NCBI GenBank assembly: GCA_014377305.1
Contig: JACMPW010000004.1
Location: forward strand, 1 to 64,000
Source of the DNA: Candidatus Altimarinota bacterium
Lineage (GTDB): Bacteria; Patescibacteriota; Gracilibacteria; BD1-5; UBA2023
DNA length: 64,000 nt
Reading direction: 5' to 3'
Numbering within the stretch: the first letter of the stretch is position 1; the number at the start of each line of letters is the position of its first letter. Below, one piece after another: positions 22,023-32,740 of the stretch. The position numbers were made by a program, and so were the translations under genes. The notes under the pieces are model-generated. The model saw only the letters and a list, made by a program, of their open reading frames with translations, ran no database searches and had not been told where the DNA came from.

Positions 22023-22047
22023 AATCCAAACTAAGTTGGGATTTTTT
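22023..22047. terminator. Terminator after the giant surface protein
   Basis: AATCCAAAC/GTTGGGATT hairpin followed by T6. It lies over the last codons of the convergent ATPase gene. Confidence 0.6.
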
Positions 22048-24520
22048 CTTCATTCAGTTTTTTTCGTTCACTCTCCTTGTATATTTTCATCTTCGCCACG
22101 TTAGGAGTCTGTGACTCCACACTCTCTCAGAGAGAGTTCTGTTTTCTTTCCATATCTTTTTTGATCTTTAATCCCTCTTTATATTCCTCTTTTTCTTTGC
22201 AATATTTTTTTTCATCATCGGAGATCTTGGCAGCATATTCGAATATCTTTTTCTCTACATAGTCTCGCTTCTTGGTATACTTTTCACGAGAGACCTTCAG
22301 TAGGATATCACGAGACTGCTGTGGTGGCGTATCGATCCGTTCATGGAGTGGAGCATAGGTCGTCGCTGAGAAAACGGGTGATGGCATGCCGTCTATCAAT
22401 AGCTTGGTATAGATATCGTATTTTCTGAGATTGGTCAAATCATGTGGGGTGATGACATCCTCTCCACCGAACACCTCAGCGAATTTCATCGCATCATCGT
22501 GTCCGACCTGGAACGATATGAGCGATCCCACATTCCCAAACACTGCACCCTGTACCGTCTCAGGCATCTGAGCGATATACTGATTCGCCATCGTGAGTGA
22601 GAGCTTGTATTTGCGAGCCTCGGATAGGATCGTCGCGAACGAGTCAGTCGCGAAGTTCTGGAACTCATCGACATACAGTCAGAAGTCCCGACGCTCGGAT
22701 TCTGGAGTATCTGCTCGAGTCATCGCCTCGATCTGGAACTTTGTCACCATCATCGCTCCGAGCAGTGCGGATGCATCTTCTCCGATCTTTCATTTTGAGA
22801 GATTCACGATGAATATCTTCCCATTATCCATGATCCACCGCAGTGAGAATGGATTTTTCGGTTGGCCAAGAATATTTCGGAGGATCGGGGATGAGAGGAA
22901 CTGTCAGACCTTGTTGAGGATCGGATTGATCGCCTCGCTCATCTGTGCGGGAGCCATCTTCTCGAACTCGTTTGTCCAGAACTGTATCAGGATCGGATCC
23001 GTGATCTTCGACACGACTTTGCGTCTATATGACTCATGAGTCAGCATCAGAGGGATCGAGATCAGTGTCGTATCTGGGATGAGAAGGAGAGTCAATATAG
23101 TATTGCGGAGGATGTATTCGAGTCGTGGTCCCCAGCTCTCGGCGAACATCTTTTTGAAAATAGAAACGAGACCAGATGCAACGATCGGACGCAGTTCAGG
23201 GTTCGGATTGTCCAGCATATTGAACGCGATCGGATACTCAGTATCAGATGGGTCAAAGAGTACAATATCATTGGTTCGAGACTTCGGGATATTGGCGAGG
23301 ATCGTATCAGCGAGATCTCCATGTGGATCGATGAGAGCGATACCACGACCGGATATGATATCAGAATAGAGCATATTTTCCAGAAGTGTGGATTTTCACA
23401 TTCCTGTTTTGCCTATGATATAGGTATGACGAGCTCGATCGACTGGCTGTATGCCGAATTCCTCCGTAGAACCACGAAAATTCGATAGTCCAATCGGAGT
23501 GTTAGGATCGAGAATATGAGGCAAATTATGTGGTGGCTCGAACCGGCGAGTCATGACCCAGTTGACTCCTGGAGTCCGGACATAGATCGTCGGCATATGC
23601 ACGAGTCCTGCGAGCTCTGTCACCGATAATATACTCCGATATTTGGAGTATGACTGGAGTGTGGATGCGTAGGTAGTCAGCTTGGGTCTGGAGATAACGA
23701 GCTTAGCTCCGTTGGGTTGAGAAAAAATATGCAGACTCGATGCGAGTTCTCTCGTGGCTGATGATGTTTTTCCTATTGACGCGAGTATGATCTGTGTCGA
23801 GTAGCCATAGCTATCGAACTTGCTTTCACTCGATTCTCGTTTTTCTTTTTTATCTCCTGTAGCGTGCTCATCCTCTGATTGCGATCCACCCGTGAGGAAC
23901 GATGCTATACTCGCGAGTAGGGTAAATGGGAACGCGAGCAAACGGATCCACCACCAATTCGAGAGGAGGAACACCTTGGCAAAATCAGGAATATGCATCT
24001 CGATGATCGATCTCTCAGTATGCTCACGCCAGTCGTGATCAGACAGTGGAGCGAAATCAACTCTGAGAAATACCGTCTCAGTCTTCGCAGATTTCGCGAG
24101 GACTGAAGTAATTCCAGACAATGGATCGATCCCCTCTTTCTCAGTACGATCCTTGAGATTGGCATAGAGCTTGATAGTGTCTCCCGAGATATGAGAGAGT
24201 CTCGCCTCCTGCATGGATATCTCAGCATCATGAGCAAAAGGGAGCACCGCCTCTGTGATCTCGATATCACTATAGTGAGCATAGAGCTGACTCTCGAGGA
24301 ACTGTCGATGCTTGGTCGGAGTCTCGAGGAAGAATCTGATCCGACTCTGGTGGTGCACGACAAAAAACCGAAACTGTGGGCGGTGATGGGGAAGGATATC
24401 CCACCAGGCGGTATGCGAGTCATGGAGGGTATCATGGAGGGTCGAGAGCATCTCACGAGCGACGAACACTCACTTCTCATTGGCCCTATCCACTGCGATT
24501 TCGAGGATCACTGTATTCAT
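22031..24520 (-). CDS. VirD4/TraG/HerA-like type IV secretion ATPase, 829 aa
   Basis: An N-terminal domain without known motifs, then a membrane segment (WWWIRLLAFPFTLLASIASF, about residues 180-205) and the ATPase domain: Walker A IIGKTGMGKSTLL (Gly375 from TGA), IALIDPHGDLADTILANI, VNLSKGKIGEDASALLGAMM, Walker B LYVDEFQNFATDSFATIL. It ends in a long charged coiled coil (EKEEYKEGLKIKKDMERKQ). Relatives couple DNA or protein substrates to type IV secretion channels. A paralogue lies at 52086-55064. No relaxase or full T4SS is nearby, so a role in DNA uptake or segregation is open. Confidence 0.8.
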
Positions 24521-24529
24521 AGGGGATAT

Positions 24530-24556
24530 TTTATAGAAAAGGGAGAAAAAAGCCAA
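24530..24556 (-). promoter_or_regulatory. Promoter of the 22031-24520 ATPase gene
   Basis: Minus strand TTGGCT, 15-bp spacer, TATAAA. The -35 touches that of the divergent sufD promoter. Confidence 0.65.
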
Positions 24557-24584
24557 TTGCATTTTTGCATATTTTTCCTATAGT
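24557..24584 (+). promoter_or_regulatory. Promoter of the SufD-like gene
   Basis: TTGCAT, 16-bp spacer, TATAGT, seven bases before the ATG, so the mRNA is nearly leaderless. Confidence 0.6.
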
Positions 24585-25916: not shown

Positions 25917-25926
25917 CCCCCCCCCC
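25917..25926 (+). repeat. Homopolymer C10 tract
   Basis: Ten consecutive C in an otherwise AT-rich spacer, 48 bases upstream of the DUF805 gene and 20 bases left of the IS30 end. Confidence 0.9.
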
Positions 25927-25945
25927 GTCAAATATTTAACCCTAG

Positions 25946-27055
25946 ATTCTAACATCAAACGCCACACCTTAGAAACTATTTCACCAAAATAATGGATTGG
26001 AGTAAAGTAGAAGTCATTCTATTTTACTTTCTTACATTGTTTCGGTTATGTCTCAACTTACAGCTCATCAACTTCACAGTATAGAGGATAAAATCCAAGA
26101 AGGACATAACAACTCTCAGATAGCTTCATTCATCAAAAAAGATAGATCTATTGTGGTGCGCCTCTTCAGAAAATATCCAAGAAATACTTTTCATGCTGAA
26201 ACAGTTATACAAGAACGATTTAAAACAAAAAGTATTGCCACACAATCCCATATTCGAATAGAGCTATGAGGAGAGCTTGCACTCTATATTTATGAAAAGT
26301 TTTTACTCGATTGGTCACCAGATCAGATCGCGGAAAGCTGGAAGGAAAAGCAGAAAGAGGAACACCGAAAAACAGTGAAACTCTCCAAGGACACTATCTA
26401 TGATTGGATATATACAGAGTATGATCCAAAGTTACTCAAGAAGCATCTTAGAAGAAAAAACAAAGAGTACCGAGATCGAAAGAAAGAAGCATCTCTTGGA
26501 TGAAAATATCAGATAGCCGAACGAATCATGATCGACGATCGAATCATAGATCATCCAAAATGTGAGACACGAGAAGAAATTGGACACTGGGAATGAGATA
26601 CCATCATCTGAAAAGATCGAAAGTGAGCCATACTCACCCTCGTAGAACGCAAGACATGACAGACATTGATTGGAGAGCTCCCGCTAGGAAAGAATGCCAT
26701 ATGAGTCACTACAGATCTCATGAGACTTGTATCTCATATTCCAAGAGATAAAATCAAAACAATCACCTTCGACAATGGACGAGAATTTGCAGATCACAAG
26801 ATGATGAGTTTTGAACTGCAGATACAGATATATTTTGCTCATGCATACCACTCTTGGGAACGAGGAACCAATGAAAATACCAACTGACTCATCAGACAAT
26901 ATATCCCAAAGAAGACAGATTTTAGTACCATAACACAAAAAGATTTGGATAAAATCCAAATCCTCTTAAACTCAAGACCAAGAAAAAGGCTCAACTATGC
27001 TACTCCAGATATGATGTTTTGGTGAAATGAAAAGTGTGGCGTTTCAGAATAGAAT
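25946..27055 (+). mobile_element. IS30-family insertion sequence
   Basis: About 1.1 kb. Inverted ends: ATTCTA-n5-AAACGCCACAC on the left (25946-25967) and its mirror on the right (27034-27055), with further similarity inside (CACC AAA, ATTTCACCAAAA on both sides). Encloses one transposase gene. I cannot define a clear target duplication; the exact outer ends may differ by a few bases. Confidence 0.85.
26048..27052 (+). CDS. IS30-family transposase
   Basis: 334 residues. N-terminal helix-turn-helix (HNNSQIASFIKKDRSIVVR), then the DDE domain: D184 in GHWEGDTIIG, D242 in TFDNGREFADH and E276 in WERGTNENTNGLIRQYIPKK, with the D-57-D-33-E spacing of IS30. The tail is LLNSRPRKRLNYATPDMMFW. About nine in-frame TGA codons, so it can only be made by a code-25 cell. 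The TAG stop lies inside the right inverted repeat. It appears intact. Confidence 0.95.
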
Positions 27056-27078
27056 TTAAGAACCGCTTTTTCTAGAAA

Positions 27079-27117: not shown

Positions 27118-28818
27118 TTATCTCTTCTCTATCATCGCTCTCACGAGTCCTATGAACAGTGGATGAGGTCGAGATGGACGAGAGATGAGCTCGGGATGAG
27201 CCTGAGTTGCGATCATATATGGATGATCTCGGAGCTCTACGATCTCTGCGAGTGATCCATCTGGTGATGTCGCTGATACGATGAATCCTGATGCCTCCAT
27301 AGCTTCGCGATATGTAGGGTCGAACTCGAATCTATGACGATGCCGCTCGGTGACTATAAGGGATTCCTTTTGTCCCTCCCCTGAGAAGGGGAGGTTAGGA
27401 GGGGTTACATTACTATGAATTCCTTTTTGTGTAACCCCCTCTAGCTCCCCCTTCTCAGGGGGAGAACCCGCTCCATATACCCGTTCTGCGAGTGATCCTG
27501 GACGAATAATACACTCATAGCTCCCGAGTCGCATATTCCCTCACTTTGAAGTAAGTCATTTTTGGTGTTCCATAATATGGATGATATTATGGACTCATGC
27601 TGGAGTGAATTCTTCACTCGATGCATCAGCGATACCCAGCACATTGCGGGCGTACTCGATCGCCATGATCTGTGATCCAAGACAAATTCCGAGGTATGGG
27701 ATCCGATTCTCTCTCGCATATCTCGCCGTCTCGATCATCCCCTCAGTTCCACGAGTTCCGAATCCTCATGGTATACAGATGCCATCGAGATTTTCGAGAA
27801 TAGTAGTTCCTGATTTTTCTATATCCTCTGCATCGATGAATTGGAGTTTTACTTTTTTCGAGTGAGCAAATCCGGCACACCGGAGTCACTCATTGACCGA
27901 GTAGTAGGCATCTTCGAGATCAGTATATTTGCCAACCATACCGATAGTGAGGATATCTGTCGAATTCTCGATATGTGTGACGAGTTGTTCCCACTTGGCC
28001 ATATTCGGTTTCACAACATCAAGTCCCATTTTTTCGAGAATCTTGGTACTGACTCCCTGAGTAGCGAACGAGAGAGGCACCTTGTAGATCGAGTCGAGTG
28101 TCGGTGCTGCGATGATATCGTCCCGCTGGAGTCCCGATTTGGATGCGATCTTCGCGAGCATCTCCTCAGGAACTATTTCATCAGACCTGACGACGAGGAA
28201 ATCAGGCGATATCCCATATCCCATGAGAGTACGGACAGAGTGCTGGATTGGTTTAGATTTGAACTCTTTCGATGCTCAGAGAAATGGAAGGAGTACCACA
28301 TGGACGAATATTACATTATCTCTGCCGAGACGATGCTGGAGCTGACGAGCAGATTCGAGGAGATACTCGTTCTCCATATCCCCTACCGTTCCACCGATTT
28401 CGATGATCGAGACATCTGCATTCGCAGTTTCATATCCTGTTTTTATTTTTTCCTGGACGAGATCCGTGAGATGTGGGACGATCTGGACAGTTCATCATAA
28501 AAAATCCCCACGACGCTCCCGAGCAATGAGCTCCTCATAGAGACGACCCGAGGTGAACGATGAGAATCGGTTCATATCCGTATCGAGAAACCGCTCATAG
28601 TGCCCGATATCGAGATCCGTCTCAGCTCCATCCGCCGTGACAAATACTTCTCCATGTTGAGTAGGATTCATTGTTCCTGGATCGACATTGAGATACCCGT
28701 CGAATTTTTGACAGTATACTCGCTGATCTGATGCTGCGAGGAGTGCGCCGATCGATGCGGCGGCTATACCTTTTCCGATGCCTGAGAGGACACCTCCTGT
28801 GACGAATATTATTTTCAA
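27118..28818 (-). CDS. pyrG: CTP synthase
   Basis: 566 residues, UTP + glutamine + ATP to CTP. N-terminal synthetase domain: [21 protein letters not shown]-loop, [16 protein letters not shown] (both Gly of GG from TGA), [12 protein letters not shown]-terminal glutaminase: [13 protein letters not shown], nucleophile Cys379 in [10 protein letters not shown], and the His of ERHRHRFEF. About 36 extra residues (roughly 448-486) between ERVYG and ERHRHRFEF are encoded by a palindromic DNA element (27361-27475). The start codon is TTG at 28818, the only start giving the family N-terminus. A hairpin lies in its leader. Confidence 0.95.
27361..27475. repeat. Palindromic element inserted in frame in pyrG
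   Basis: Two long imperfectly complementary arms (27373-27409 and 27428-27464), each with its own small hairpin (CCTCCCC-tgagaa-GGGGAGG and CTCCCCC-ttctca-GGGGGAG). A direct repeat GRATTCCTTTTkT starts at 27361 and again at 27418. The segment is GC-rich compared with its surroundings and codes, without stops, for [15 protein letters not shown] and [15 protein letters not shown]. Confidence 0.85.
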
Positions 28819-30595: not shown

Positions 30596-32740
30596 CTATT
30601 CCTCATCGTCTTCCTCGAACTTCACTCCGCGTTCTGCTCGGATTTTTTCTGTGATATTGTTCGGAACCTGAGAATAGTGAGCAAACTCCATAGCATAGGT
30701 AGCTCGACCCTGAGACGATGAACGGAGATCTGTCGAGTAACCGAACATCTCAGAGAGAGGAACATGAGCTCGGATGATCTTCGCCATACCTCGCTCAGTC
30801 ATCTCGATGATCTGGCCTCGTTTTGAGTTGAGATTGCCGAGGACATCACCCATATACTCTTCTGGAGTATTGACCTCGACGAGCATGATCGGCTCGAGGA
30901 GAGCAGGCTTTGCCTTGCGAGCTGCCTGACGAAATGCCTTGATAGCTGCCATACGAAATGCGAGCTCGTTTGAGTCGACATCATGGTACGAACCGAATGT
31001 GAGAGTGGCCTTCACATCTACGATAGGATATCCAGCGATGATACCACGAGTATAGGCGGTCTTGAGACCCTTCTCGACTCCTGGGATGAACTCTCGAGGG
31101 ATGACACCACCGACTACCTTGTTGAGGAATACTGTCTCATCAGCGAGACCCTCTGGATCAGCGATACGCTGCTCTGGAGTGATCGGCTCGAATGTGATCA
31201 CTACATCACCGAATTGTCCTCGTCCACCTGATTGTTTCTTATGTGTCCCTCGCTCATCAGTCACTGTAGCAGTGATCGTCTCACGGTAGGCAACTTGAGG
31301 AGCACCGACATTGGCCTCGACCTTGAACTCACGTTTCATACGATCAACGAGGATCTCGAGGTGGAGCTCACCCATACCTGCCATGATCGTCTGTCCAGTC
31401 TCTGGATTCGATGATACACGGAACGATGGATCTTCTTCGGCGAGCTTATTGAGTGCCATACCCATCTTTTCCTGATCTGCTTTAGTTTTTGGCTCTACAG
31501 AGATCGAGATCACTGGCTCAGGGAATACCATACGCTCGAGGAGGATCGGACGGTTAATATCACAGAGGGTATCTCCGGTCTTCGTATCCTTGAGTCCGAT
31601 GATAGCTCCGATATTACCAGCTGGGATCTCATCGATCTCAGTTCGAGTATTGGCGTGCATCTGGAGGAGACGACCGATACGCTCCTTTTCTCCGGTGACA
31701 GAGTTGAGGACATATGATCCTGACTTCAGAGTACCTGCATAGACTCGGACAAATGTGATACGACCGACAAATGGATCAGTCATGATCTTGAACGCGATCG
31801 CACCAAGAGTCTCATTTGGATCCTGTTTGAGAGAGATCACTGTATCAATATCATCTGGATCAACACCGGTTGCCATACCACCCTTGACATCAAGAGGAGA
31901 TGGGAGGAGATCTACGACGGCGTCGAGGACGAGTTGTACACCCTTGTTCATGAGGGCAGATCCACACATGAGTGGATAGACCATATCGGATATGACACCC
32001 TTACGAAGACCCTGTATGATCTCTGCTTCTGTAAGTGTACCATTCTCGAAGAACTTGTTCATGAGATCATCATCTTGCTCTGCTGCCTTCTCGACGAGAG
32101 CGGCATGCCACTTGTCTGCATCAGCCTGATGTGATGCTGGGATCTCCATCTCTATCACCTTCTCACCCATCTTCCCATCAAAAGTATACGCCTTCATATT
32201 GATGAGATTGATGATACCAGAGAACTCATTCTCCTGACCGATAGGGAGTTGGATAGGGATGACTTTGTTTCCAGCGAGACGCTTGATGATAGACTCGTAT
32301 GTCATCATGAAGTTACCACCTGTCTTGTCCATCTTGTTCGCGAATGCGATACGAGGCACTCCGTATTTGTCAGCCTGTTTCCATACAGTCTCTGACTGAG
32401 GCTCGACACCCTGAGATGCGTCGAATACGGCAACCGCTCCATCGAGAACTCGCATAGAGCGCTCTACCTCGATCGTGAAGTCCACGTGACCTGGAGTATC
32501 AATCAGATTGAGTTGTACCCCATTCCATGTCGTTGTAGTAGCCGCCGAAGTAATAGTAATACCTCGCTCCTTCTCCTGCTCCATCCAGTCCATCGTCGCA
32601 CCACCATCATGTACCTCACCGATCTTGTGGGTGATACCAGTATAGAACAAGACACGCTCAGAAGTGGTAGTCTTGCCGGCATCGATGTGGGCACAGATAC
32701 CGAAGTTTCGGATATTTTTGAGATCCTTGGAAATCGCCAT
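30596..32740 (-). CDS. fusA: Elongation factor G
   Basis: 714 residues. G1 [20 protein letters not shown]2 [10 protein letters not shown]3 [10 protein letters not shown]4 NKMDKTGG, followed by domains II-V with the usual order. It translocates tRNA-mRNA on the ribosome. Despite a large number of glycines there is not a single TGA codon over 2.1 kb, unlike almost every other long gene here. Own promoter at 32782-32809. Confidence 0.98.

Follow-up and report, generated by a model that had tools for sequence, protein, structure and literature searches.

Can a reassigned stop codon confine an insertion sequence to the bacteria that share the reassignment? The question is raised by an IS30-type element in the window (the whole stretch of 64,000 nucleotides analysed here), whose transposase gene carries in-frame TGA codons in a genome that reads UGA as glycine. 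A code barrier to gene transfer has already been proposed in print: UGA recoding was suggested to isolate these bacteria genetically in both directions, as a speculation citing Campbell 2013 (PMC8080830), and the passages of that paper used here share with the present case the general idea of the barrier and differ from it in holding no test on mobile elements. A related pattern is described for phages of Gracilibacteria and Absconditabacteria, among which those using code 25 are dense in in-frame TGA and the others avoid TGA and fit both codes (PMC10746230). As far as the parts of that paper used here go, these phages resemble our element in being mobile DNA with dense in-frame TGA tied to UGA=Gly hosts, but they are phages and not insertion sequences, and the word stem "transpos" is absent from the paper's main text. 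Isolation of gene exchange by a changed code has been argued, in the passages of the cited work, without a test on natural insertion sequences; among the titles returned by our literature search, none dealt with insertion sequences recoded in UGA=Gly bacteria, and the recoded IS30 adds a new case.

The host genome and its genetic code

The genome that contains the window (917,877 bases in 16 contigs, 93% complete) is that of a UGA=Gly member of the Patescibacteria, probably from Gracilibacteria/BD1-5; the class fits Gracilibacteria in the wide sense, a name that we infer. Its rpoB domain has 3 TGA codons and no RF2 match passed the cut-off, an absence that is not absolute in a genome 93% complete. 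Among 11 genomes tested, the RF2 cut-off was passed in two (G270 and G308), both of them standard-code; eight UGA=Gly hosts each gave one weaker match to the RF2 model, as expected for RF1, and the standard-code G315, an incomplete genome, gave two partial matches only. A tRNA-Gly(UCA) was not among the 29 tRNAs found, a set that also lacks tRNA-Met and hence reflects an incomplete search.

Host code was assigned per host family, with families f1 (to which the window genome belongs), f3 and f5 taken as UGA=Gly. The rpoB domain was matched in 61 of the 68 IS30-bearing genomes of the class (7 had no match), and it contains TGA in 20 of 22 matched hosts of these three families versus 0 of 39 others. 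Two f1 genomes, G020 and G002, have an rpoB domain without TGA, yet carry in-frame TGA in other long frames. In the window itself the gene for elongation factor G (30596-32740) has 0 TGA among 62 glycine codons and some less conserved open reading frames (ORFs) have 40-60%, which may mean that highly expressed genes avoid TGA. One further genome, G061, has two rpoB domains that are 86% identical (L135 on contig C40 and L136 on C5) and may be a mixed bin.

Structure of the element

The element occupies positions 25943-27058 of the forward strand, on which all the parts described here lie, and is bounded by inverted repeats found in a repeat search: the left one of 28 nt at 25943-25970, and the right one at 27031-27058, overlapping the 3' end of the transposase ORF. 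The repeats are 79% complementary (22 of 28 positions match), and the ATTCTA-type start of the left repeat is common to the ends of several relatives. The ORF (26048-27052) encodes 334 amino acids under UGA=Gly, with nine in-frame TGA codons and a TAG stop, and its product scores 243.6 bits on the NCBIfam profile transpos_IS30 (NF033563), well over the cut-off of 80 bits, with E 2.9e-72. The original prediction had recognized an IS30 element at 25946-27055, within 3 nt of these ends.

Transposases of the IS30 family combine an N-terminal helix-turn-helix with a DD(33)E catalytic triad, in which 33 residues separate the second Asp from the Glu; the elements end in inverted repeats, some 20-30 bp long and near the ORF, and make short target duplications of 2-3 bp. 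The window element is like the family in its transposase profile, DD(33)E spacing, N-terminal helix-turn-helix, length of about 1.1 kb, single ORF and terminal repeats, and unlike it in having nine glycine codons as TGA. The predicted structural model places the helix-turn-helix at about residues 6-42 (26063-26173; helices 6-17, 22-28 and 33-42) with pLDDT of 81-96, in a whole model that reaches a mean pLDDT of 75 and a pTM of 0.52 only; by Foldseek the best PDB matches of the model are retroviral integrases. In an alignment of seven rows (the window transposase and six recoded relatives) the catalytic residues D184 (26597-26599), D242 in the motif TFDNGREF (26771-26773) and E276 in the motif GTNENTNG (26873-26875) are invariant, and 33 residues lead from D242 to E276.

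The window element is an intact, ordinary IS30-family insertion sequence in recoded form, and its family membership predicts movement through standard DDE chemistry at its inverted repeats. Its current transposition is unproven, as the genome has a single copy with imperfect repeats and the signs of a target duplication are uncertain: a 2-bp TA flanks the element on both sides if the outer two repeat bases are counted as target, which chance would explain. A clean empty site was sought beside pyrG in the congeners G006 and G008 and was not found; both are without the element, and G008 has another gene there.

Several features of the neighbourhood were recorded in passing. A run of ten C lies at 25917-25926, just upstream of the left repeat. 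On the other side, the CTP synthase gene (27118-28818, reverse strand) contains in frame a palindromic stretch (27358-27470, 76% self-complementary over 27378-27461), which corresponds to about residues 451-488, has no counterpart in matched relatives and is single-copy in the genome. At 22031-24562 lies a gene for a type IV coupling-protein or HerA-like ATPase (TrwB_AAD_bind, TraG-D_C and DUF87 domains), which is a possible DNA-transfer part.

In-frame TGA codons are read as glycine

The in-frame TGA codons of the transposase, about nine according to the original prediction, are exactly nine (G74, 152, 183, 188, 193, 204, 219, 280 and 326), and they include the one said to encode the glycine of GHWEGD: G183, encoded by TGA at 26594-26596, immediately N-terminal of D184. 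Under translation table 25 the frame is open throughout, with neither TAA nor TAG inside it; a standard-code reading breaks off at codon 74, ahead of the catalytic domain, which bears out the claim that a standard-code cell could not make this protein. Three of the nine TGA stand at columns that are mostly glycine in 70 standard-code relatives (G183 in 46/70, G188 in 41/70, G280 in 52/70), and because of these three the pattern of TGA is not one of chance; the remaining six are at columns where the commonest residue is not glycine. The same assignment emerges from the recoded copies at large in a test that covered only columns where the standard rows agree on Gly, Arg or Trp: at columns with at least 60% agreement, TGA falls on Gly in 81 of 83 cases and on Trp in 2, and at columns with at least 50% agreement on Gly in 87 of 98, on Arg in 9 and on Trp in 2.

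TGA makes up 9 of the 18 glycine codons of the transposase; for the window's remaining long ORFs taken together the figure is 233 of 1289 (Fisher p 0.002). This high share could be read as the mark of a recent arrival from a TGA-richer donor, but two other ORFs of the window reach shares of 0.62 and 0.50 and several lie at 0.42-0.45.

IS30 copies divide by host code

IS30 matches were found in 74 of the 353 genomes of the class by profile and in 68 of 353 by another search. Among near-full copies, defined as covering at least 200 of the 267 profile positions and tallied by hand, TGA is present in 17 of 19 in UGA=Gly hosts (7-15 TGA each) versus 0 of 34 in standard-code hosts (Fisher p 5e-12). 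TAA also occurs inside 3 of the 17 recoded near-full copies (that of G020 and both of G126) and inside 1 of the 34 standard ones (G136). The two TGA-free near-full copies in UGA=Gly hosts, G108:C84 (L109) and G113:C27 (L116), were considered as fresh arrivals and set aside, for their contigs look misbinned: G108:C84, 4 kb long, has a TonB-dependent receptor as its other long frame, and its IS30 nests among copies from Bacteroidota, and G113:C27 has a GC content of 0.51 and 0-2 TGA per long frame. Misbinned contigs of this kind would give a false sign of recent entry.

Below the length rule the division is less sharp. Pieces with TGA occur in the standard-code hosts G243:C247 (192 positions, with one TGA and four other stops), G166:C147, G129:C37 and G240:C34 (two pieces), and UGA=Gly hosts have TGA-free pieces, such as those on G002:C133, G115:C23 and G080:C42; fragments lacking TGA include L003 (G002) as well as L108 and L114 (both G115). 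Among 379 genomes drawn from the phylum, 45 had IS30 matches, and among the listed rows from outside the class four contain TGA. In G357 it is the terminal stop; G649:C5 (L063) has one internal TGA close to residue 315, and G599:C43 has one where Trp 181 is conserved, neither at a glycine, so that both look like nonsense mutations and not glycine codons; in G510:C24 it lies in a piece with four other stops. Three further candidates for standard-code copies with an internal TGA (L060, L064 and L019) were rejected, as their TGA is the last codon aligned and serves as the stop.

The extent of recoding follows the host. For recoded rows that span 140 codons or more and whose host rpoB was retrieved, the TGA share of glycine codons in the insertion sequence correlates with that in the host rpoB (Spearman 0.63, p 0.004; 19 copies in 14 hosts, among which copies from one host and kin copies are non-independent), and it is the higher of the two in 18 of the 19 copies, which fits a drift within the host under less restraint than that on a highly expressed gene.

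The search for close standard-code relatives

No near-identical copy of the window IS30 was found in standard-code genomes across the class, the phylum sample, the named genomes, plasmids and phages, in line with the original prediction. Among standard-code matches that span most of the transposase, the best has 45% identity (G308), and a 68-residue C-terminal fragment in the standard-code G270 has 66%. A pattern-limited search of named genomes gave 10 loci, the best segment at 49% identity; plasmid matches were all below 60% identity, the 20 listed of at least 5000 reaching at most 37%; and 44 phage matches reached at most 43%. A profile scan of IMG/VR kept 80 of 95 loci; of the 79 that were counted, 77 lack TGA and 2 have a single one, although one of its two patterns demands GGN glycine codons and so biases it against recoded copies. 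A scan of IMG/VR with the window protein alone gave no match; of the patterns specific to TGA, two each recovered a viral contig, L275, and another gave five contigs without an IS30 match.

Phylogeny and crossings of the code boundary

From 115 loci, 20 were left out of a first tree (12 short, 8 duplicates) and a further 8 (2 misbinned, 6 short) of the careful tree of 87 rows, onto which the host code was mapped. The window copy groups with those of G059, G061, G032 and G016 in a clade (support 100/86) in which 5 of 5 copies are UGA=Gly and which spans two host families. A wider clade of 12 rows (100/99) adds five f5 copies and the standard-code G308 and G315, whose placement beside the window's group is weak (93/70). 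Constraining the ten recoded rows of this wider clade to be one clade was tolerated (AU p 0.39), and constraining all 19 recoded copies to be one was rejected (AU p 0.00028), which rules out a single origin of all recoded IS30. The label of host code changes about 7 times on the tree (6-7 in bootstraps), at least 4 of them on starred branches, in counts that carry no direction.

On the tree IS30 has crossed the code boundary repeatedly, each recoded copy being confined as it stands. The claim that the element evolved inside code-25 lineages agrees with the supported clade of five, but is not supported as a single locked history, as the recoded copies are not one clade; the claim that its spread is limited to such lineages stands for the window copy as it is, but not for the IS30 family with its changes of label. 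The position of G308 and G315 inside the 12-row clade fits either an exit from recoded hosts or two entries. Several recoded clades could also stem from several IS30 lineages that predate the code change.

The form of the standard copies bears on direction. The stop is TAA or TAG in 38 of 73 standard loci, and a later stop was seen in 30 of the 34 copies ending in TGA, whose tail gained by read-through would have a median of 17 codons and a range of 2-292. A standard copy could work on arrival if its stop is TAA or TAG or its tail is short. Crossing is therefore probably asymmetric, with an easy entry and an exit that needs every TGA reverted, the direction being argued from mechanism.

Possible spread among UGA=Gly hosts and possible carriage by a phage

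The transposases of G032 (f3) and G016 (f1) are 75% identical, and the rpoB of the same pair are 78% identical; the CTP synthase of the window genome (f1) has 53% and 40% identity to those of two f3 genomes, and no CTP synthase was found in G016. By these comparisons the two transposases seem to be more alike than vertical descent would suggest. A possible vehicle is L275 (1-5759), a viral contig of 5.8 kb with six phage-type ORFs and 31 TGA versus 77 GGN codons; four of the six match PHROGs (major head, head-tail adaptor, tail completion and portal). In-frame TGA lie within its head and portal genes. At its end is an IS30 fragment of 95 codons, with 7 TGA and no GGN, that has 59% identity to the window transposase, 65% to those of G059 and G061 and 62% to that of the standard-code G546. 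Because the contig end cuts this fragment, a recoded phage as vehicle of IS30 is only suggested. A comparable arrangement exists in the Spiroplasma phage R8A2B (code 4), which likewise carries an IS30-type transposase with reassigned TGA (7 in 322 aa), but there TGA is Trp, the host is of another phylum, and the identity is 31% over residues 178-327.

A possible second reassignment in one host family

Codetta has assigned CGA and CGG to Trp in Absconditabacteria and CGG to Trp in some Gracilibacteria, according to the parts of that work considered here (PMC8629427). At columns conserved at the 50% threshold, CGA in f5 copies falls on Trp 4 times (L039, L079, L103 and L104) and on Arg once, in copies of f1 and f3 on Arg 14 times and on Trp never (f5 versus f1 and f3, p 0.0013), and in standard copies on Arg 99 times, on Gly 4 times and on Trp never; the counts are small, and the test was devised after the pattern was noticed. 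The window copy uses CGA as Arg at its conserved columns and has no CGG. A single CGG was seen at a conserved Trp column, in L028 of the f3 host G038. The rpoB copies of f5 contain neither CGA nor CGG and hence give no reading of CGA. Family f5 is probably Absconditabacteria, and the placement of CGA at conserved Trp columns in its copies suggests a second lock on IS30 nested within the first.

Discussion

We think it probable that the code boundary acts as an asymmetric filter on IS30 and that the window element is an intact copy, recoded along with its host and usable only under UGA=Gly. Glycine codons of an IS30 copy would drift to TGA under the mutation and decoding of the host, a cause to which the correlation with host rpoB points; once TGA is present, translation in a standard-code cell would break off at codon 74, before any catalytic domain is made, as follows from the code. 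Elements from standard-code cells whose stop is TAA or TAG, or whose read-through tail is short, could enter UGA=Gly hosts, become recoded there and then pass between lineages that share this code, perhaps carried by phages, and by the same mechanism leaving would require the reversion of every TGA. In one host family the further reassignment of CGA to Trp seems to add a nested filter. The fuller scheme that joins these steps (nested one-way filters, with repeated entry of IS30, recoding paced by the host, code-confined spread partly on phages and a second lock by CGA=Trp) is put forward tentatively, as a proposal that falls somewhat short of probable.

Two other histories would place the same copies behind the boundary. 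A lineage that arose once inside UGA=Gly hosts and never left them would agree with the well-supported clade of five recoded copies, with the tolerance of the AU test for ten as one clade and with the lack of near-identical standard-code copies in our searches; it is nonetheless unlikely, since the same test rejects all 19 as one clade and the standard-code G308 and G315 lie within the 12-row clade. Alternatively, the common ancestor may already have carried several IS30 lineages, which gathered TGA by drift after the code had changed, so that no barrier is needed. The deep branches that separate the recoded clades and the way in which the TGA share follows the host are what such descent would leave, but presence is patchy (68 of 353 genomes of the class, and in the window genus one of five with a substantial copy and one more with a 59-residue remnant), two congeners lack the element beside pyrG, and the 75% identical pair spans host families; we regard this history as quite improbable.

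That the TGA codons are instead nonsense mutations of a dying pseudogene would suit a single copy with imperfect repeats, and nonsense TGA do exist in a few standard-code relatives. We reject this explanation as having hardly any chance of being right: the DDE triad is intact in a frame free of TAA and TAG, three of the TGA occupy conserved glycine columns, the same pattern recurs in many relatives, and the TGA of recoded copies fall overwhelmingly on glycine at either threshold of column agreement. The occurrence of IS30 on both sides of the code boundary within one class makes the frequency, direction and delay of crossing measurable from sequence alone, and, if the nested-filter scheme is true, the time that a copy has spent behind the barrier would show in its proportion of reassigned codons.
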